Assembly: GCA_022600935.1 (NCBI GenBank)
Contig: JAHZJL010000223.1
Span: forward strand, 1-42,409
Direction: 5' to 3'
From: Gammaproteobacteria bacterium
GTDB taxonomy: Bacteria > Pseudomonadota > Gammaproteobacteria > Methylococcales > DRLZ01
DNA: 42,409 nt
A model generated the notes under the pieces. That model was not told the origin of the DNA. It made no database searches and saw nothing but the letters and a program-made list of their open reading frames with translations. The translations under genes and the position numbers were made by a program. This document shows, piece by piece, positions 1 through 10,894 of the stretch (positions are counted from its first letter, which is position 1; the number at the start of each line of letters is the position of its first letter).

Positions 1-279
1 AAGCGATATTAATTCAACTGGTTAAATAGGGTAAGGCACTTTATAGATTTGGCTGAAGCAAGTGAGTAATCAAGAAAGTCTTCAATTGAAATGTATGGTG
101 TACAGATTATCTACTTCTTATTAGCGGTAATATAATTGTACTTTATCCTGGGTTTTATTTATGATTAATACATAATTATAAATATATTGCAAACCTGTGC
201 ATTCTAATTGAATTTTCTTATTTAGAAGCCACACGAAACGGAAGTCATTTTTGCAACATCATTTAAAGGAGAATTGATT
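1..279. other. AT-rich non-coding left edge and leader of FG-GAP gene
   Basis: No credible open reading frame is visible on either strand. The stretch is very AT-rich, and several TATAAT-like strings occur between about 125 and 195, so no single promoter can be picked. The only firm signal is the ribosome binding site AAAGGAG at 265-271, which serves the gene starting at 280. Confidence 0.5.
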
Positions 280-3000
280 ATGAATAAAAATAACTTATCA
301 CCTTCCTACATTTCACATAAAAACATCTTCCCATCTGAAAATAAATTCCAACCTAATAATATAAAAACAGTACGCCAGCGTTTACGAAACACAATAATCA
401 CATGGATTGCACCACTTTTGGCCCTATCGCTCACCGGGATCGCGACTTCTGCTATTGCCAGGGATGCCATATTCGAACTCTCCAGCCTTGATGGACGTAA
501 TGGCTTTGTGATCAACGGCGATGAAGCTGCTAACGGAAGTCTAAGAATGGTAAATTCGGCAGGCGATGTCAATGGTGATGGGTTTAATGATGTGTTAATT
601 AGTGTTCGAGAGGCCACCTTCAACGGGAATGTATCTGGTGCTAGTTACGTCGTGTTTGGTGCCAGCGGAGCAGGGGCGAACGGCACGCTGGAACTATCCA
701 CGCTTGATGGCAACAATGGTTTTGTCATTCTAGGAGTGACAGTTGGTGACTTCTCAGGCTGGTCAATAAGCGCGGCGGGAGATGTTAATAATGATGGCAT
801 CGGTGATCTATTGATAGGCGCGCCAAGCGCTGATCCCAATGGATCTTTATCTGGTGCTAGCTATCTGGTATTTGGTGCCCGTAGCATCGGTTCTGGCGGT
901 GTTCTCGAGCTATCTGCGCTAGATGGTAGCAATGGCTTTGTGATTAACGGCGCGACAGTTGGTGACACTGCAGGAGTATCAGTAAGCGCAGCGGGTGATG
1001 TTAACGATGACGGTATCGACGACTTTCTAATCGGTGCGCCAACGAACGGATCTGGGCAGGGTACCAGCTACGTGGTATTTGGCGACATTAGTATTGGCAC
1101 CAACGGTGTACTAGAGTTGTCCACTCTTGATGGCAATAACGGCTTTTCGATTAACGGTGTGACAGTTGGTGGCAGATTAGGAGTATCAGTAAGCGCAGCG
1201 GGCGATGTTAACAATGACGGCATCGATGATCTGTTGTTAGGCGCTCCATCCGTTGATATCAATGATACTGACGTTGGTGCCAGCTATGTGGTGTTTGGTA
1301 CCAGCGGCGTAGGCGCTGGTGGCGTGCTGGAGTTGTCCTCGCTTGATGGCGATAACGGCTTCGTGCTCAACGGTTTTATAGGACATGACCAGTCGGGAAT
1401 GATAGTAAACGAAACGGGCGATATCAACGGCGACGGCATTGATGACTTATTGGTTGGTGCTCGACGCAGCAGTTTCGCCATATTTGGCGCCAATGGGATC
1501 GGCACAGGCGGTGTGCTGGAGTTATCCTCACTTGATGGTAGTAATGGATTTATGCTTAGTGGAATACTTAGCAGTTCAACCGCAGCGGTAAGCGGTGCTG
1601 GCGATGTTAATGACGATGGACTCGCTGACCTGCTGATTGGGTCTCGTCTCACTGATACCAATGGCAATCAAGATTCTGGTGCCAGTTACGTGGTTTTCGG
1701 TACCAGCGATGTCGGTGCCAGCGGCACACTGGATGTAACAACACTTGATGGTGACAATGGCTATGCAATCAATGGAGTAAGAACCGAGGATTTTTCAGGT
1801 AGTGCGGTCAGTACTGCTGGAGATATCAATGGTGACGGTATTGATGATCTGTTGATTTCTGCGCCAGGTGCCGACATCAACGATTTTGCTGGCGCCAGTT
1901 ATGTAGTTTTTGGTCAGAACCCTAACAATCCCGTACCTGTCATCTTAGAAACGCAAATTATAACGAGCTCTGATGATGCCGAAGAAAAATCAAGCGGCTC
2001 AGTGAATAGCAGAAGCAGCGATCTAGACCTCGGTGAAAAACTCGTTGGTCTGCGTTTTGCTGCGGTTAATATCCCTGCTGGAGCAATCATCACGCGTGCC
2101 TATGTACAATTTGATGCGGATGAATCAAATTCCAGCGTGGCTATGTTTGAGCTGGTGGGTGAAGCAAATGATAGTTCGTTACCGATTAGCCCCGCCTCAC
2201 AGAATATTTCGTCCAGAGCAAAAACAACCGCATCGACTACGTGGGCGCCTGACCCCTGGATCGCGGGCGATGCGGGAATACCGCAGCAGACAAGCGATAT
2301 CTCTGCAATTGTGCAAGAAATTGTCAAACGACCCGGTTGGTCGGGTGGAAACGCGCTGACCATTATTGTAAGCGGGAGCTCAGGGAAACGCGTCGCTGTG
2401 TCACACAACAAAAATCCAGCAGGAGCACCTTCTCTGCATGTGGAATACACTTTGGCGAATGGCTCGGTCGCCGATATACGTGTGGCAAATAACTTAGATG
2501 ACGCCGAAGAAAACGAGGATGGGTCCATTCAAAGAAACAGCAGCGATCTCGAACTGGGTTTTAATAAAACAAAACAGCAAACAGTTGGCATGCGTTTTAA
2601 CAGTGTAAATATTCCGCAAGGCTCGACGATTACTGCGGCCTATATTCAATTTCAAGCGGATGAAACAGATTCTGTGACAACAAACTTATTGATTGAGGGA
2701 GAAGCTACAGACCACGCGCAAGCATATGCATCCTTCATCGGAAATATCTCTTCAAGGAATCGTACCCAGGCTGCGATAGCCTGGACACCGCCACCCTGGA
2801 CATCCATAGGTGAGGCAGGCCCCAACCAGCAAACGCCGGATATTGCTTCGATTATTCAGGAAGTAATCGATCGCCCTGGCTGGTTGAGTGGTAATGCGCT
2901 TGGAGTTGTTGTCACCGGAAACGGTCAACGTACTGCGGAGTCTTATGATGGTATGCCAAGTGCAGCTCCTCTCCTGCATATGGAGTATATTTCACCGTAA
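280..3000 (+). CDS. Secreted seven-repeat FG-GAP (integrin-alpha-like) protein
   Basis: A 906-residue protein, probably exported. The ATG at 280 is chosen because AAAGGAG lies 8 nt upstream; an in-frame TTG at 274 is too close to that site. The N-terminus is long and basic, with a hydrophobic core at about residues 38-58 and a possible cleavage site near 60. Seven FG-GAP-like repeats of about 70 residues follow (about 65-546). Each has a calcium-binding-type loop of the form DxNxDGxxD (for example DVNGDGFND, DINGDGIDD) and a GASYVVFG strand. Two copies of a beta-rich domain follow at about 557-723 and 730-906. Each copy begins with a DDAEE motif and contains a WxxxPWxxGxAG-like segment and a PGWxxGNAL segment. 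The family suggests an extracellular beta-propeller for adhesion or ligand binding, but no substrate can be read. A clear hairpin terminator follows. Confidence 0.85.
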   Translation: MNKNNLSPSYISHKNIFPSENKFQPNNIKTVRQRLRNTIITWIAPLLALSLTGIATSAIARDAIFELSSLDGRNGFVINGDEAANGSLRMVNSAGDVNGDGFNDVLISVREATFNGNVSGASYVVFGASGAGANGTLELSTLDGNNGFVILGVTVGDFSGWSISAAGDVNNDGIGDLLIGAPSADPNGSLSGASYLVFGARSIGSGGVLELSALDGSNGFVINGATVGDTAGVSVSAAGDVNDDGIDDFLIGAPTNGSGQGTSYVVFGDISIGTNGVLELSTLDGNNGFSINGVTVGGRLGVSVSAAGDVNNDGIDDLLLGAPSVDINDTDVGASYVVFGTSGVGAGGVLELSSLDGDNGFVLNGFIGHDQSGMIVNETGDINGDGIDDLLVGARRSSFAIFGANGIGTGGVLELSSLDGSNGFMLSGILSSSTAAVSGAGDVNDDGLADLLIGSRLTDTNGNQDSGASYVVFGTSDVGASGTLDVTTLDGDNGYAINGVRTEDFSGSAVSTAGDINGDGIDDLLISAPGADINDFAGASYVVFGQNPNNPVPVILETQIITSSDDAEEKSSGSVNSRSSDLDLGEKLVGLRFAAVNIPAGAIITRAYVQFDADESNSSVAMFELVGEANDSSLPISPASQNISSRAKTTASTTWAPDPWIAGDAGIPQQTSDISAIVQEIVKRPGWSGGNALTIIVSGSSGKRVAVSHNKNPAGAPSLHVEYTLANGSVADIRVANNLDDAEENEDGSIQRNSSDLELGFNKTKQQTVGMRFNSVNIPQGSTITAAYIQFQADETDSVTTNLLIEGEATDHAQAYASFIGNISSRNRTQAAIAWTPPPWTSIGEAGPNQQTPDIASIIQEVIDRPGWLSGNALGVVVTGNGQRTAESYDGMPSAAPLLHMEYISP
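472..1917 (+). repeat. Seven tandem FG-GAP coding repeats (about 210 bp each)
   Basis: The coding sequence repeats seven times in tandem. Each unit opens with (V/T)LELS-LDG-NGF, continues with AGDVNxDGxxDLLIGAP, and ends with GASYVVFG plus a Gly-rich linker. Units 5 and 6 are the most diverged: unit 5 lacks most of the segment between the calcium loop and FG, and unit 6 lacks the GD before the core. DNA similarity between units 2, 3 and 4 is high, for example around gtaagcgcagcggg. This points to recent internal duplication. Confidence 0.85.
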
Positions 3001-3595: not shown

Positions 3596-3617
3596 TATTC
3601 TGACAGGCTGTTAATTC
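3596..3617. repeat. 22-bp flanking repeat, copy 1 (at stop of giant gene)
   Basis: The sequence TATTCTGACA, then GGC, then TGTTAATTC overlaps the reverse-strand stop codon of the giant gene at 3611-3613. A copy matching at 20 of 22 positions lies in the same orientation at 11367-11388, about 480 bp upstream of that gene's start. Together they bracket about 7.8 kb. Confidence 0.5.
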
Positions 3618-6600
3618 GATCGATCAATCGTAAAGTCCCAGGCAAACGAATCACAACCATCTTTACCATTTGGCCCTAAACCGACATAGATCGTATCGCC
3701 GCTATTGAGAGTCCCGAGGGTTCCGTCAAACGTTGTTTGACCACCACGATCATAGCTTTGACTTTGAATGAAAGTATCATTCACATAGAGCCTGACTTCA
3801 CTACCATTTCCGAAAGCGCAACCCGTGTGGGTTGCTTGGCTTTGTACGATACGATAGTTGCCTGCCTGACTAACCTGGTAAGCAGCAATCACGAATCGGT
3901 CAGCCGCTTGTCCTTGATTAACGCCACGTCCTGCGTGTCCACCAGTCGGTCGCATACTACCATAGGCAAGATCACTGGCGTCAGGGAGTCCACGGACACC
4001 ATCTGAATCATAGTAAATACCATTCCATTGTAGAGCAGTATAGTTGCTTGCCTGTCCAATCGGACCCGCGTTGTTCCACAGATATGACCAGCCTTGTGCA
4101 GGTGTCACACTGGTATAGTCTGCCTGATACACAGCAACTGTCTGACTGCCAGATAGACTCGCCACATCCCAGCTGATAGACACGCTATCATTTCCAGTTT
4201 GTCCATCGCTGACATTGATCGTGACAGTATAGAGCCCCGGTGTAGTTAGTGTTCCAGATACTACCCCTGAGCTGGTTATCGATAAGCCTGGCGGTAGACC
4301 CGTTGCGCTGAATTGCAGGGTATCACCATCTTGATCGCTAGCACTCAGTGTGAGGTTGATGGTATCAGCTTCGGTGTCATTCTGATTGCCTGGATCCGTT
4401 AGTATCGGCGGAGAATTTCCACTTGCTCCAGAGCGTTCGAGCATGTAGTCCCAAACAAAGCCATCGCACCCATCAGATCCATTCGGTCCTGCTCCGACAT
4501 AGATGGTATCACCTGCAACGAGGCTACCGATGTTCGCGTCGAATGACGTTGCAGAGGGACCATAAGCGTGTTGATTAATGAAGATGTTATTTGCATAGAT
4601 TTCGACAACACCACCAGTGCGGGTGCATCCATTATCAGTGACCTGACTTTGTACAATACTGTAGTCCCCAGAACGGTCGACTGTAAATGCAGCAATCACA
4701 TATCGGTCATCGATTTGACCTTGCGCGATACCGCGGCCTGGATGGCCTCCGTTTGATTTCATGCTGCCATAAGCGAGATCGGTTGCATCAGGTAGGCCGC
4801 GGGCCCCATCCGAATCGTAGTAACTGCCATTCGATAGCATAGCTATATAGTTACTGGCCTCACCGATTGGACCTTGTGCATTCCACAAATATTGCCATCC
4901 AGGTGCTGGCGTACTGGTTTGATAATCGCCCTGGTAATGCGCGACAACTTCTGAACTATCTGTATTGACTGTCCAGGTGAAACTCACGGTATCACTGCCG
5001 CCGCTTCCATCATCTACTGTTACGGTGACATTAGAACTGCCGATAGCAGTTGCGTTTCCGTTAATAATACCGCTGTTCAAATCGATACTAAGTCCAGCTG
5101 GTAGCCCATTTGCGCTGAAATTTAAAACATCACCATCAACGTCATCAGCACTGATTAGCAAGGATACATTGTTACCAATCGCACTGTTTTGATTGCCTGG
5201 ATTCGTTGCGACAGGTGGTGTATTCCCTTGTGTCACGGGATCAATAGTCCAGGAAAATGTTGCGCTATCACTGCCGTTATTGCCATCGGCAACTGTTACT
5301 GTAACCGTTGTTACACCACTCGTTATCGGTGAACCACTGATTACACCAGTATTACTGTCAATACCGAGACCAGTGGGTAACCCAGTCGTGCTAAAAACGA
5401 GTGTATCTCCATCAGGATCATTAGCACTGAGAGCAAGAGTAACGCTGTTTCCAACCACCGAGCTTTGATTTCCAGGGTTGATTAAAGATGGGGGTGTATT
5501 TGCTGAGGGATTCTCTGGTGCAGGTTCCTGTTGGTCAATCTGGCGTAAATATGAAACCAGTTGATTCAGTTCAGTGGTTGTCACTGATACATCTACATGT
5601 GCTGAAACAGCTTCAGCAAGCGAGGCAGCGGAGCCGTCATGCAAATAAGGTGCAGTTGCCCACAAGCCGCGCAATGTTGGTGTATCAAAACCCGTTAGTA
5701 CTCCACCGATTCGATTACCACTGGCAGGTTTTATCGTTCCAACATCATGTAATGACGCGCTCACGCTATCTGTAAATCCCTGACCTGAATGACATGTTGC
5801 ACATGCCTGGTTTATAAAAACAGTTTTACCTGCTTGGGCATTTGTAGTGAGTGTCCCATCAGGGTTGCGATCTGGACTCGTTTCAAAGTTCGTTAATGAG
5901 TTGACATATGCTGCCAAGGCATCAAGATCTGAACTTAAACCTTCTTTCGACGCTCCGAGCGGATCACTAGTCGCATTAAAATCAGCATTGGTCATCAATC
6001 CTGTGCCACCAGCGAAGTTTCGAATTTGACCTTCGAAATCATGGACTTCATCAAAATTTGCAGTCCAATGCACTGCGCCATGTTCGGGCCCACCTCGGCC
6101 ATTCAAGTCAATGGTATTACGTACACCCTCGCCAAATTGGGTGAAATCCCAGACACGACCATCATGTCCACCGTCATTGTGACACGAAGCGCAGCTCATA
6201 TAAGAGTCTCTCGCTAAACGTGGGTCGCGGGCATCATAAAAATGCTGTTTTCCCGTTAACACTTGTGCTGACAGTTGTTCGTTGGCAACAGTATTGAGTG
6301 TATTCAGGGTGGTGACATTCTGGGCATTTAAACTCACTTCTGTTAATAAATTACTAAGGTCGTGAACGGTTACAGAACGATCCATGAAATTATGAACATA
6401 GAGGGTTAAACCATCGGCAGAGAGTGCCAGGCCCTGAGGTGCTCTACCTACATCAAAGCGGACTAATTCAGCTTTTGAGTAATTATCAACGACAGCGACT
6501 TGACGGCTTCCTTCCAGCACAGAAAAAAAGTGGTTACCGGTTTTATCAAATAAGCCGGTAACAGCAACGCCTCCATTATCATGATCAATACGCGCAGCGT

Positions 6601-9600
6601 GATCTTCACTTTGACTTGCCAGGTCGATGCGCGATGATATGCTGCGGACACTTGTTTCAAATGTTAAGTTCTGACTATCACGCAATGTTCCGCGCAGAAT
6701 ATTATCCTGTTTAGAAGGCGCCCATGCCGACAACCCATCGGGTGAAATAACCATCGGGCCTAGATAATTCGGAATACCACGTCCGCTGTTCTCGGAATCG
6801 TTGCGATTACTATGGAGTAAAGAGATAGTGCCTGAGATCGCCATGTTCGAAGCATTGATTACAACTACTTCGGCACCTCCCTGGTCTACCTGTGGATTAG
6901 CACCATCTTCTCCAGGCAATAAAGGTGTTATAAAACGTGACACATAAATTTTACTACCGTCAGCGTTTATCGAGAAGTGACGCGGGTTTGGACCAACTCC
7001 TATTTCAGCGGTTTGCGACGAAGAAGACGTGTCGAAACGTAGTAATTTTCCGCTGGATTCCAATGAAATATACATCTTATTACTAGATGGATCGGCAGCA
7101 ATGCCAAATGGTCGTGAACCATTGGGTAGTGGAATTGTTTGTATGATGCTTAAGGATGACGCATCGATTATGCTGATGGATGCACTTTGACGATTTGTTA
7201 CCCAGACTGTTCCAGCTGTTGTCATCGCCAAACTGCGAGGGTTTTGTTCAACAGCAATTTCGGCGACTTTATTCATTGTCACGGCATCGAAAACACTGAC
7301 TGAGGCGTTATCTGGATTGACGTTCCAGATTCGATCATTACCTACTCTTGTTTGGTAGATAATGCTCATGGATTCAACAGCACGATTGATTGTCAATGGA
7401 GCATGAATCAATTGCAAAAACTGAGTTTGCTCAGTAGCTCCAGTGTCATCAGTTACAATCAATGTCACGATATAGCGCCCTGGACTGGAAAAACTATGCG
7501 TAATTATTGTCGAATTCGAAAATGCTGTTTCAGGGCTGTTATCTCCAAAATTCCACTTGTACCGTGGATTTAGTCCGCCAGTTGTTACTGCGGTATAATT
7601 GACCGATGAATTCACTGGTTGAGGTGAAGTCAATATCGGGCTCAATACCAGGGAAGGAGGGTTATTGACCGTCCAACTGAAGCTTGTGTTATCGGCACCG
7701 CCACGTCCATCGCTGACGTTTAATTCAATCGTAAAGCTTCCAGAATTTGTCAATATTCCGCTGATTATTCCAGTAGTACTGTTAATACTAAGACCAATCG
7801 GCAGGTTGATCGCGCTATAAACCAGCGAGTCCCCATCTCCATCACTGGCAACAATGTCAAGACTGATGCTGTCACCGATGATATTGGTTTGATTTCCTGG
7901 GCTTATGATTACGGGTGGTTGATTATTTTCTGCAATGGTAATAACAACATCATCAATCGCAGCTTCAACCATACTGCCACTATCATTATCAGCAGCCTCT
8001 ATCAGCAGATGTATTGTCTGGCCAGCAAAGCTGTTTAATGATCCAGAAAATACAGACCAGTTTGCTGCATCATTATCAGCCGCACCTCTTTCTTCGAGCA
8101 AAATTGTTGAATTGTTCCCAATCGCAGTGACTCGAAGATAATCGGCATTCGATGCATTATTCAGGTGCGCAAGATAGTAAGAGAATGCAATCGTCGCCTG
8201 GCTATCCAGCGGAATAAAGATATTTGGAGAACGTATCGAAGTTTTGCCGTTATCGATATCATGTGAGCCGACACCTGAACCTGCTAGTGCACCAGTTACA
8301 AGTGCGTTCTGTCCACTTGTTGTACTGTCGAGTTGATAAGTATTGCCATTATTACTGGTGCTTTCTGGATTGGCTCGTTCCCAGAGTCCGGTCGTTGCAG
8401 TATCGTCGCCATTGGGGTTTCTGAACCAGCCTTGGTCGCTTTCAAAGTCGTAATCAACCTCAAAACCGCCATTTGAAAGTACTGCCCACGCAAATGAAAC
8501 ATTCGCATTGGCAATGCTATCACTAATTGAAACACTAACATTGTAATTTCCAGCCGTTCCAGCGGCAATTGTGCCGGCTATTACACCAGTTGAATTATTA
8601 ATCGATAAGCCTGCTGGCAAGCCAGATGCACTGAAAGTCAAAGAGTCGCCATCTGGATCACTTGCTATTACTGGTAGCGATAAACTGTCACCTTCATCAT
8701 TTATTTGGTTGCCCGGATCTACGATTATCGGCGCATCGTTAGATACAAATGGGGATAAATATTGGCCATCAATCACACTACGATAACCATCTTGGTATTG
8801 CCAGGCAACCGCAAGATTATCACCACCAGTATTTTCCTTTTGCAGAGCTTCAATATAGTAGCGTTGGCCTGCTTGTAGAGTGATTAAGGTCGATTGCTGT
8901 TCAGGCAATTTGTCCCATTCGCGAGATGCAGCCCAGGTTGGAACACTCGCAACTGTCGTTGCTCCTGCTGGATCGGTACTGTTGCTTAATAACAATTGAC
9001 CGCCATCATCGCTGGCGATCCAAAAGCGATATTGCCCAGTTAGCGGTGGGTGGATGAATCCACGCATACGTGTACCGTATAGATCTCCCAGGTTGGAAGG
9101 TGCTTCAAAGGTATTTTGAGTATCGCTGCCTGTAGGATTATCTGGATAGTTTGGACTATTGGTTAAATCGGAAACTGAACCACCTGCAATAGTTGTCCAC
9201 CATTCACGCGTAATTTCGCCAGTTCCAGCGCCGGATGGAAATGATGAAATACGCAACAGTTTCGCAACCGAAGGGACTCCTTGCTGATCAATAGCATAGA
9301 GCATCCAGTACCCTGGCGTTAGAACATCAGGGTTGCTGTGCAAATCTAAAGAATATGAACCATTATTTACTGTAGCAAATGGAACTTCAAGAAAGCGCAA
9401 ATCTGAATTAAGGTTGTGCGTGGTCGCAGACATCTTAATCATAGTAAATCGTTCAATCAACGATGTTGCTGCAACGCTGATTGTTTCGCCATAGTGAACC
9501 TCTTCTGGAGCCGACGTAATACTTGGACGGGTTGCAAGTGACCCGTCATCATTAAACAAATAGGCAGGCGAATACACTTGTGAGTCTGGATGATCTGCGG

Positions 9601-10894
9601 AACAATTACATAAACCACCACCGCCAGACCATACACGACCGTCAAACATTAATAATGCTACCGAATGATAGTTTCTCGGTACAGCCATATCTGCAACTTG
9701 GCGCCATGAACCATCACTAGGATTCCAGATTTCCGGTGTAAAAATTGTTCCACTATCACTAAATTCAATACCAGATGTATTCCCACCAATAACCATGACT
9801 TCACCTGTCGGCAAAACCACACCATTGGCAAACTGGCGCGAGTGGTGCATAGACGTTTGCGTGGTCTGTTGTGGGGTCGCTCCATTGATATCAATGATTT
9901 TAACCTGGTTCGTACCGACAGCTGAACTTGAGCCATCGACAGCTCCGCCTGCAACGAGAATCTTACCTTCGTCGTACATCACTCCAACCGAGTATTTCGG
10001 ATACCAGGTATTTCTCGTTTGCGCATCGCTGACACTACCATTTCCATCGGTGTCAATCCAATTCATCCTCTCAGTGGGGCCAGAATGAAAAATTAAACCG
10101 TTGGGTGCGAGGTGGAGGTATGGTAACCAGTTTTGTTGATATCCAGGATAATCTAGGATTGGGCCTTGTAAATTTGCACCACTTAAAATTGACCAGCCTT
10201 GACCCGGTGTCCATAACTCGGGGTACTGGGCACCACGTTGACCGATTGCGGTAAACACCCGACCATTGGGTAACGCCAAACTACCAGCGTACCAACGCGG
10301 GTTGTTCATTTCATCGACGCGCTGCCATTGATTGGTACGATAATCAAAAATACTGGTATGAAACATTGTGGCAAGATTGCCCTGGTCACCGCCATTGACT
10401 ATAATCCGGCCATCTTCAAGCGTTGTTGGAATACCACAAAACATGGAATGATTCGCATTAGGCGTGGATATAAACTGTCCGGTTGCAGGATCCCAAACTG
10501 CACTATGGGTGAAGTTTCCACCAGTAAAAGATGTAGGATTGTTTCCACCCCATGCGACAATACGACCATCAGGAAGACTTGCAGCCGCTGCAAAAGCAAA
10601 CGACCACTGCACCACTGGCCCCCATTGACCGACAGAATTTGCTGGTCCCGAAATAGCACGGGCAACGGAGGCTGGTAATGCTAATGGCGCTTCATCTCGC
10701 TCCCGAGCTAACCGCGCTAACTTATAATCACCCTCAAGGTGACTATCGTTGCCCAAAATAGATACGTTATCTGAAAGAGAATGATCAATACCATTATGTG
10801 ACTGTACATAAGGTGAAATTGTAAAGAGCACAAAATAATAAACTATACAACGGGTAATGCATATTAAGTTATTGTTCTTTTTGATCATTGGCAT
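3611..10894 (-). CDS. Giant secreted galactose-oxidase-like / propeller / di-haem cytochrome fusion protein
   Basis: A 2427-residue exported protein. The ATG at 10894 is supported by AAGGAT about 9 nt upstream. Order of parts: hydrophobic signal segment about 10-32; galactose-oxidase-type kelch propeller and its C-terminal domain about 85-552; PA14-like 561-715; putative-Ig 719-808; MAM/CBM-like beta domain about 812-988; putative-Ig 993-1077; PKD about 1080-1165; YVTN-type propeller about 1175-1520; cytochrome c region 1540-1790 with CASCH (1568-1572) and CATCH (1698-1702); two putative-Ig domains 1800-1977; duplicated domain 1982-2155 and 2252-2427 with another Ig between. Aligned by motif to galactose oxidase, the copper and cofactor residues are C153, Y202, Y409, H410 and H493. 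The stacking Trp of galactose oxidase appears to be Arg220, so the substrate probably differs. The cytochrome part resembles the MauG / cytochrome c peroxidase superfamily (TPTLRGLWATAPYLHDGS). Inference: periplasmic or surface oxidase of alcohols, aldehydes or sugars with a built-in electron carrier. Confidence 0.85.
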   Translation of the reverse strand: MPMIKKNNNLICITRCIVYYFVLFTISPYVQSHNGIDHSLSDNVSILGNDSHLEGDYKLARLARERDEAPLALPASVARAISGPANSVGQWGPVVQWSFAFAAAASLPDGRIVAWGGNNPTSFTGGNFTHSAVWDPATGQFISTPNANHSMFCGIPTTLEDGRIIVNGGDQGNLATMFHTSIFDYRTNQWQRVDEMNNPRWYAGSLALPNGRVFTAIGQRGAQYPELWTPGQGWSILSGANLQGPILDYPGYQQNWLPYLHLAPNGLIFHSGPTERMNWIDTDGNGSVSDAQTRNTWYPKYSVGVMYDEGKILVAGGAVDGSSSAVGTNQVKIIDINGATPQQTTQTSMHHSRQFANGVVLPTGEVMVIGGNTSGIEFSDSGTIFTPEIWNPSDGSWRQVADMAVPRNYHSVALLMFDGRVWSGGGGLCNCSADHPDSQVYSPAYLFNDDGSLATRPSITSAPEEVHYGETISVAATSLIERFTMIKMSATTHNLNSDLRFLEVPFATVNNGSYSLDLHSNPDVLTPGYWMLYAIDQQGVPSVAKLLRISSFPSGAGTGEITREWWTTIAGGSVSDLTNSPNYPDNPTGSDTQNTFEAPSNLGDLYGTRMRGFIHPPLTGQYRFWIASDDGGQLLLSNSTDPAGATTVASVPTWAASREWDKLPEQQSTLITLQAGQRYYIEALQKENTGGDNLAVAWQYQDGYRSVIDGQYLSPFVSNDAPIIVDPGNQINDEGDSLSLPVIASDPDGDSLTFSASGLPAGLSINNSTGVIAGTIAAGTAGNYNVSVSISDSIANANVSFAWAVLSNGGFEVDYDFESDQGWFRNPNGDDTATTGLWERANPESTSNNGNTYQLDSTTSGQNALVTGALAGSGVGSHDIDNGKTSIRSPNIFIPLDSQATIAFSYYLAHLNNASNADYLRVTAIGNNSTILLEERGAADNDAANWSVFSGSLNSFAGQTIHLLIEAADNDSGSMVEAAIDDVVITIAENNQPPVIISPGNQTNIIGDSISLDIVASDGDGDSLVYSAINLPIGLSINSTTGIISGILTNSGSFTIELNVSDGRGGADNTSFSWTVNNPPSLVLSPILTSPQPVNSSVNYTAVTTGGLNPRYKWNFGDNSPETAFSNSTIITHSFSSPGRYIVTLIVTDDTGATEQTQFLQLIHAPLTINRAVESMSIIYQTRVGNDRIWNVNPDNASVSVFDAVTMNKVAEIAVEQNPRSLAMTTAGTVWVTNRQSASISIIDASSLSIIQTIPLPNGSRPFGIAADPSSNKMYISLESSGKLLRFDTSSSSQTAEIGVGPNPRHFSINADGSKIYVSRFITPLLPGEDGANPQVDQGGAEVVVINASNMAISGTISLLHSNRNDSENSGRGIPNYLGPMVISPDGLSAWAPSKQDNILRGTLRDSQNLTFETSVRSISSRIDLASQSEDHAARIDHDNGGVAVTGLFDKTGNHFFSVLEGSRQVAVVDNYSKAELVRFDVGRAPQGLALSADGLTLYVHNFMDRSVTVHDLSNLLTEVSLNAQNVTTLNTLNTVANEQLSAQVLTGKQHFYDARDPRLARDSYMSCASCHNDGGHDGRVWDFTQFGEGVRNTIDLNGRGGPEHGAVHWTANFDEVHDFEGQIRNFAGGTGLMTNADFNATSDPLGASKEGLSSDLDALAAYVNSLTNFETSPDRNPDGTLTTNAQAGKTVFINQACATCHSGQGFTDSVSASLHDVGTIKPASGNRIGGVLTGFDTPTLRGLWATAPYLHDGSAASLAEAVSAHVDVSVTTTELNQLVSYLRQIDQQEPAPENPSANTPPSLINPGNQSSVVGNSVTLALSANDPDGDTLVFSTTGLPTGLGIDSNTGVISGSPITSGVTTVTVTVADGNNGSDSATFSWTIDPVTQGNTPPVATNPGNQNSAIGNNVSLLISADDVDGDVLNFSANGLPAGLSIDLNSGIINGNATAIGSSNVTVTVDDGSGGSDTVSFTWTVNTDSSEVVAHYQGDYQTSTPAPGWQYLWNAQGPIGEASNYIAMLSNGSYYDSDGARGLPDATDLAYGSMKSNGGHPGRGIAQGQIDDRYVIAAFTVDRSGDYSIVQSQVTDNGCTRTGGVVEIYANNIFINQHAYGPSATSFDANIGSLVAGDTIYVGAGPNGSDGCDGFVWDYMLERSGASGNSPPILTDPGNQNDTEADTINLTLSASDQDGDTLQFSATGLPPGLSITSSGVVSGTLTTPGLYTVTINVSDGQTGNDSVSISWDVASLSGSQTVAVYQADYTSVTPAQGWSYLWNNAGPIGQASNYTALQWNGIYYDSDGVRGLPDASDLAYGSMRPTGGHAGRGVNQGQAADRFVIAAYQVSQAGNYRIVQSQATHTGCAFGNGSEVRLYVNDTFIQSQSYDRGGQTTFDGTLGTLNSGDTIYVGLGPNGKDGCDSFAWDFTIDRSN
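3614..4951 (-). repeat. Duplicated C-terminal domain of the giant protein
   Basis: Residues 1982-2155 (nt 4430-4951) and 2252-2427 (nt 3614-4141) are two copies of one domain of about 175 residues. Both contain PAxGWxYLWNxxGPIGxASNY, YYDSDGxRGLPDAxDLAYGSM, GGHxGRG, VxQSQxTxxGC and DTIYVGxGPNGxDGCDxFxWD. An Ig-like module separates them. Two Cys per copy may form a disulfide. The family is not recognised with certainty; it looks like a beta-sandwich carbohydrate-binding module. Confidence 0.75.

Follow-up and report, generated by a model that had tools for sequence, protein, structure and literature searches.

It is an open question why copper-radical oxidases (CROs) depend on a peroxidase to reach full activity and where in nature this peroxidase comes from, and two described systems give partial answers. 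In fungi, a haem peroxidase turns an inactive Cu(II) AA5 alcohol oxidase into the active radical form by one-electron oxidation, the two partners in Colletotrichum and Magnaporthe being secreted proteins from paired genes (PMC9770985), and in Streptomyces the CRO GlxA depends for its maturation on Sco together with the haem peroxidase DtpA, which has also been proposed to remove H2O2 (PMC4736821). Here we describe a gene in a stretch of 42,409 nucleotides from a gammaproteobacterium (assembly GCA_022600935.1, contig JAHZJL010000223.1, positions 1 to 42,409; hereafter the window), whose product carries a CRO domain and a di-haem c-type domain in one chain. The partner thus differs from the separate DyP protein of Streptomyces and from the class II peroxidase of the fungal pairs, and such a natural covalent fusion makes the peroxidase question directly testable within one polypeptide. 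Each part belongs to a known family, and a literature search, with thin coverage of subscription journals, found no description of their covalent combination. The protein is best explained as a predicted secreted or cell-surface, single-chain bifunctional oxidase-peroxidase.

The fused polypeptide and its two redox regions

The open reading frame occupies window positions 3611-10894 on the minus strand, as do all features of the protein given below, and encodes 2,427 amino acids in a single frame with an ATG start and no internal stops. From the N- to the C-terminus, Pfam and NCBIfam assignments, together with the unannotated stretches, give the order signal-like stretch, AA5 CRO domain, PA14-like domain, He_PIG modules with an unannotated domain at about residues 808-986, PKD domain, YVTN propeller, di-haem domain, further He_PIG modules and two copies of an unannotated C-terminal domain. 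The signal-like N-terminus (residues 1-32; 10799-10894) has a basic start followed by a hydrophobic run at about residues 9-31, and a hydropathy scan revealed no further strong transmembrane stretch in the rest of the protein. A preliminary description of the sequence had placed in one polypeptide a full set of residues for a Cys-Tyr radical copper site and, about 1,070 residues further on, two CxxCH haem sites behind a YVTN-type propeller, with PA14 and Ig-like modules in between; all of these elements were recovered in our analysis, the PA14 match lying just below the Pfam cut-off.

The CRO domain (residues 78-550; 9245-10663) has as its nearest solved structure the bacterial galactose oxidase 9g8h (40% identity, phmmer E 1.5e-97). 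Its structure was predicted from an alignment of 26 sequences with a mean predicted local distance difference test score (pLDDT) of 91.9, and the model adopts the galactose oxidase fold, superposing on the Pseudoarthrobacter (9g43, 9g8h) and Fusarium (1gof) enzymes with TM scores of 0.91-0.92 at 33-40% identity. Like these enzymes, the domain combines a Kelch propeller with an E-set region, the latter matched by PF09118 (E 2.5e-18), and aligns to all five of their copper and radical residues, each invariant in 26/26 domains. These are C153, the predicted thioether partner, in an MFCG motif (10436-10438); Y202, the predicted cross-linked Tyr, in RWYA; Y409 and H410, the predicted axial Tyr and first His copper ligand, in RNYHS (9665-9670); and H493, the predicted second His copper ligand, in TTHN (9416-9418). 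As judged from alignment and model, the domain is a complete AA5 copper-radical site in a Kelch/E-set fold.

Unlike galactose oxidases, which are marked by a W290/R330 pair (PMC11267884), the window CRO has R220 and a Gln at these positions in sequence alignments, is fused to haem domains and has a Trp directly before the predicted cross-linked Tyr (W201-Y202; 10289-10294). This Trp is present in 24 of the 26 CRO domains and corresponds to the arrangement in FgrAldOx, a fungal AA5_1 aldehyde oxidase in which the consecutive W509-Y510 supplies the second-sphere Trp (PMC13094651), so that W201 may be a second-sphere Trp like that of AA5_1 enzymes. However, FgrAldOx and GlxA are more remote in fold and sequence (TM scores of 0.81-0.83, 18-20% identity), the window CRO being closer overall to the AA5_2 galactose oxidases, and with the GlxA equivalog model NF052501 the protein scored 158.9 bits, below the cut-off of 800 bits. 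Since the W290/R330 pair is replaced and a Trp precedes the cross-linked Tyr, the domain is predicted from these residues to be an alcohol or aldehyde oxidase that is not galactose-specific. A galactose oxidase sensu stricto is ruled out by the R220 and Gln of the pocket. One fused relative, L060, appears to keep the galactose-type W/R pair.

The first haem motif follows 1,075 residues after H493, behind a YVTN beta-propeller at about residues 1187-1530 (6305-7336) that was recognized by TIGR02276 and gave a strand-rich model with 1l0q and 5c2v_B as the best Foldseek matches. The di-haem domain itself (residues 1535-1800; 5495-6292) was matched above cut-off by PF03150 (CCP_MauG; 33.8 versus 25.6 bits), PF00034 and PF21419 (RoxA-like cytochrome; 31.1 versus 26.7 bits, covering just 27 of 39 model positions), whereas the RoxC model gave 19 bits against a cut-off of 900. 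Both haem motifs, the first at residues 1568-1572 (6179-6193; predicted peroxidatic haem) and the second at 1698-1702 (5789-5803; predicted electron-transfer or E-haem), are invariant in an alignment of 24 haem modules and are spaced 127-132 residues apart throughout the fused proteins, and an HW pair (1609-1610), E1616 and D1619 are invariant in a 22-row version without the two plasmid rows. A profile from 22 relatives matched hydrazine synthase beta and gamma, bacterial cytochrome c peroxidase (CcP) and MauG in the PDB. In a fold search with a model of propeller and haem domain together, propellers dominated the matches, leaving the haem domain unplaced by fold. The preliminary description had considered that the haem motifs might lie outside any cytochrome fold; they were found within a domain whose relatives are the di-haem CcPs, MauG and the gamma chain of hydrazine synthase.

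With the di-haem CcP/MauG/MbnH superfamily (PF03150) the domain shares the two CxxCH motifs, a PYxHDG motif and an invariant Trp between the haem motifs, but it sits behind a propeller and a CRO and has a His, H1766 (5597-5599), at the axial Met/Tyr position in an ungapped alignment to 3o5c and 1iqc. In CcP this position is that of the distal axial ligand (Met) of the E-haem, and in MauG and MbnH the distal ligand of the six-coordinate haem is a Tyr. A His occupies it in every fused protein aligned, while the separate MauG-type enzymes adjoining some relatives have Tyr. With the MauG and MbnH equivalog models the protein scored below cut-off (55.9 versus 443.85 and 47.7 versus 362.85 bits, respectively). 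By its sequence, the domain is a member of the CcP/MauG superfamily, but the His that occupies the axial position of the E-haem sets it apart from both classical CcP and MauG. A similar arrangement is that of hydrazine synthase beta-gamma (5c2v), in which a YVTN propeller is likewise followed by a di-haem CcP-like unit and of which both chains, 5c2v_B and 5c2v_C, were matched in profile and fold searches. In contrast to hydrazine synthase, however, the window protein carries a CRO, and its score of 73.5 bits with the corresponding NCBIfam model is far under the curated cut-off of 1,250 bits.

Recurrence and history of the fusion

A search for the same domain order in other genomes, proposed with the preliminary description, recovered the fusion as a single reading frame in at least twelve further assemblies from three phyla, Pseudomonadota, Verrucomicrobiota and Myxococcota. 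The one-frame loci include L016, L017 and L019 in Verrucomicrobiota, L026 in Myxococcota, the gammaproteobacterial loci L021, L022, L023, L025, L062-L064 and L103-L105, of which L103 has a shorter frame of 1,616 residues, and L060, which lies on a complete plasmid from a cultured strain of the Comamonadaceae and whose product (UST56369.1) is annotated as a discoidin domain-containing protein. The genome bin of the window contains another contig (L002; G000:C89:243-6398) with a copy of the gene that is cut off by the contig end; this copy covers residues 376-2427 at 89% identity and represents either a paralogue or a strain variant. Misassembly of two genes, which the preliminary description had raised as a possible source of the chimaera, is ruled out, as is chance, by the independent one-frame assemblies, the second contig of the bin and the complete plasmid. 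At L024 and L067 the CRO and haem halves occupy adjacent overlapping frames, perhaps as a result of sequencing frameshifts. Wherever the N-terminal side is intact, all relatives of the haem module with an identity of about 47% or higher carry a CRO, either in the same frame or, at these two loci, immediately upstream.

The two halves of the fusion do not share the same pattern of relationships. In a tree of 44 CRO sequences the fused CROs require six state changes, four of them forced by well-supported branches, and a topology holding the fused CROs together as one clade was rejected by the approximately unbiased (AU) test (p=3.4e-7). The AU test also rejected joining the CROs of L060 and L105 (1.6e-5) and those of L062 and L063 (1.1e-13). 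A single clade of fused CROs is ruled out by this test. In the haem-module tree, on the other hand, the fused proteins share one side of a branch with support 69/85, L105 being placed in a well-supported group with L060. Since the haem modules group while the CROs do not, different CROs have become attached to a single type of haem module, or have replaced one another upstream of it, and the CRO-haem partnership has persisted despite the changing CRO type. In the simplest reading, the YVTN-di-haem module stayed constant while the CRO domains in front of it were exchanged or were attached on more than one occasion, although losses may account for part of the tree pattern.

Haem modules that lack a CRO also exist, at L027-L030, L061, L065 and L066, and are more distantly related. 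At L065 (8777-12565) and L066 (6831-11765) the YVTN-di-haem unit is preceded by a long N-terminal region that includes a Big_5 Ig domain; both have Gly at the E-haem ligand position and are adjoined by a conserved small gene.

Possible roles of the haem domain

From known CRO chemistry, copper loading and Cys153-Tyr202 cross-linking of the CRO would come first, after which the domain would oxidize its substrate at a primary alcohol or aldehyde group, with reduction of O2 to H2O2. The di-haem domain would then react with this H2O2 at its N-terminal haem and have two functions: one-electron oxidation of the resting Cu(II)-Tyr site to the active Cu(II)-Tyr radical, a reaction that separate haem peroxidases carry out for other CROs, and removal of surplus H2O2. 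That the fusion recurs in unrelated bacteria, often beside copper-delivery genes, suggests that the haem unit activates the CRO or uses its peroxide. The preliminary description had proposed that the haem part could consume the H2O2 or carry electrons away, which is plausible and can be made more specific by the cases in which haem peroxidases activate or mature other CROs (PMC9770985, PMC4736821). A gene for a SCO, YtkA-like, MbnP or MauG-type protein lies within 4.5 kb of 11 of the 21 fused genes, compared with 3 of 28 CRO-only genes (all three SCO) and none of seven haem-only genes, and MauG-type neighbours occur at 9/21, 0/28 and 0/7 of these genes, respectively, counts that are indicative because the flanks were unequal, those of the controls often being short, and because some fused loci are close relatives and thus not independent.

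Since a domain of the peroxidase superfamily shares its chain with a CRO, and copper-loading genes lie near relatives, built-in activation and peroxide handling is the best supported role. By analogy with the fungal and Streptomyces pairs, and from sequence and models, we put the probability that the haem domain serves the CRO through a reaction with H2O2 at roughly one half. More tentatively, and with the balance slightly against it, the fusion may represent a new class of self-contained CRO/di-haem enzyme, uniting in one chain a radical copper site that makes H2O2 and a di-haem partner, ligated by His, that keeps the radical active. Such an enzyme would have spread among bacteria through replacement of its oxidase domain while the haem module stayed constant, accompanied in many lineages by dedicated genes for copper loading.

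Besides the limits of the neighbour counts, several observations weigh against a peroxidase role in CRO activation. The window gene has no copper-loading neighbour in the window. Between the end of the CRO and the start of the propeller there are 616 residues (208-661 among the fused members), and direct contact of the catalytic domains is not implied. Since the E-haem position has His, and neither the Met of CcP nor the Tyr of MauG, peroxidase chemistry cannot be assumed, and the support consists of sequences and models.

The same His suggests a low-spin electron-transfer haem and would fit an electron relay, for which a covalent tether is also well suited. The di-haem domain would then pass electrons from the reduced CRO to an external acceptor, and the protein would be an alcohol or aldehyde dehydrogenase making little H2O2. 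One fused locus (L023) does share its contig with genes for proteins with 5, 8 and 8 CxxCH motifs. However, no conserved cytochrome or quinone partner was seen adjoining the fused gene, the first haem retains features of the CcP superfamily, and published CROs use O2, so that we regard such a relay as unlikely. It is rather improbable that the di-haem domain is a separate catalyst, a RoxA-like oxygenase or another substrate-oxidizing haem enzyme, acting on the polymer attacked by the CRO and merely co-localized with it by the fusion. The RoxA-like cytochrome model was matched above the Pfam cut-off, the second haem of RoxA is bis-His and the YVTN-di-haem unit exists also without a CRO; yet the RoxA-like match spans 27 positions only, and the haem modules of the fused proteins form a group of their own that is tied to CROs.

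Activation of the CRO by the haem domain also has to be distinguished from a MauG-like maturase function, in which the di-haem domain would make a protein-derived cofactor, for example by assisting the formation of the Cys-Tyr cross-link in the CRO of the same chain. Membership of the MauG superfamily and the need of GlxA maturation for a haem peroxidase (PMC4736821) are consistent with this role. We nevertheless hold it to be quite improbable, because the axial Tyr of MauG, Tyr294, which the title of a study cited in PMC6405878 ties to the bis-Fe(IV) state, is replaced by His in all fused proteins aligned, while adjoining separate MauG-type enzymes keep Tyr, and because copper is reported as the requirement for CRO cofactor biogenesis (PMC13094651). 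Finally, although inactive domains can occur in large secreted multi-module proteins, the invariance of the five CRO residues in 26 domains and of both haem motifs in 24 makes it very improbable that either domain is a structural, non-catalytic remnant.

Should the haem domain indeed activate its CRO, self-activating oxidases of this kind would be of use in biocatalysis. The adjoining MbnP-MbnH and YtkA-MauG pairs, which are poorly understood copper-protein pairs, would gain a candidate client enzyme in the fusion.

Accessory modules and neighbouring genes

The remaining modules of the protein, Ig-like, PKD, PA14 and repeated C-terminal domains, would serve as spacers or polymer binders. The PA14-like domain (residues 606-708; 8771-9079) was matched by PF07691 with E 4.5e-5 and 23.7 bits against a cut-off of 24. 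The unannotated domain between He_PIG modules (about residues 808-986; 7937-8473) has no Pfam match of its own, and homologous stretches with 44-56% identity occur at L012, L013, L047, L048 and L050. Further towards the C-terminus lie the PKD domain (residues 1091-1160; 7415-7624; PF18911, E 1e-17) and, behind the di-haem domain, two He_PIG Ig-like modules at about residues 1804-1977 (4964-5485; PF05345). The two copies of the C-terminal domain (residues 1983-2154, 4433-4948, and residues 2253-2427, 3614-4138) are 59% identical to each other; they have no Pfam match, a PDB search gave no convincing relative, and the repeat is possibly a polymer-binding module.

Among the relatives with copper-loading neighbours, MbnP-like and MbnH-type parts are combined in one protein at L016 (4421-6127) and, as judged by similarity to L016, at L024 (1067-2959), its gene lying in both cases directly upstream of the oxidase-haem fusion. 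A YtkA-like gene together with a MauG-type gene was found at L022 (16082-18307), L025 (1589-3281), L026 (8629-10267), L064 (12758-14384) and L107 (8396-9877). The small YtkA-like partners have an HxW motif in common, and the pair resembles MbnP-MbnH, but the fold of the partner differs. A SCO gene is the neighbour at L060 and L105, and in the Comamonadaceae strain a hypothetical gene lies between it and the fused gene. The genome of the window itself encodes, on another contig, a SCO1/SenC copper-chaperone domain fused to a MauG-type di-haem enzyme (L074:7487-9343; G000:C151), a candidate helper for copper enzymes. A search of this genome for MbnP gave no match, but neither did the control, so that absence is not shown. 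The genes with 5, 8 and 8 CxxCH motifs at L023 (1456-7201) lie upstream of the fused gene and possibly encode multihaem electron-transfer proteins.

In the window, the fused gene adjoins a cell-division cluster of gammaproteobacterial type, consisting of mraW, ftsI, mur genes, ftsW and ftsA followed by lpxC and secA. On the opposite strand, a gene for a large FG-GAP repeat protein (274-3000, plus strand) also adjoins the fused gene.

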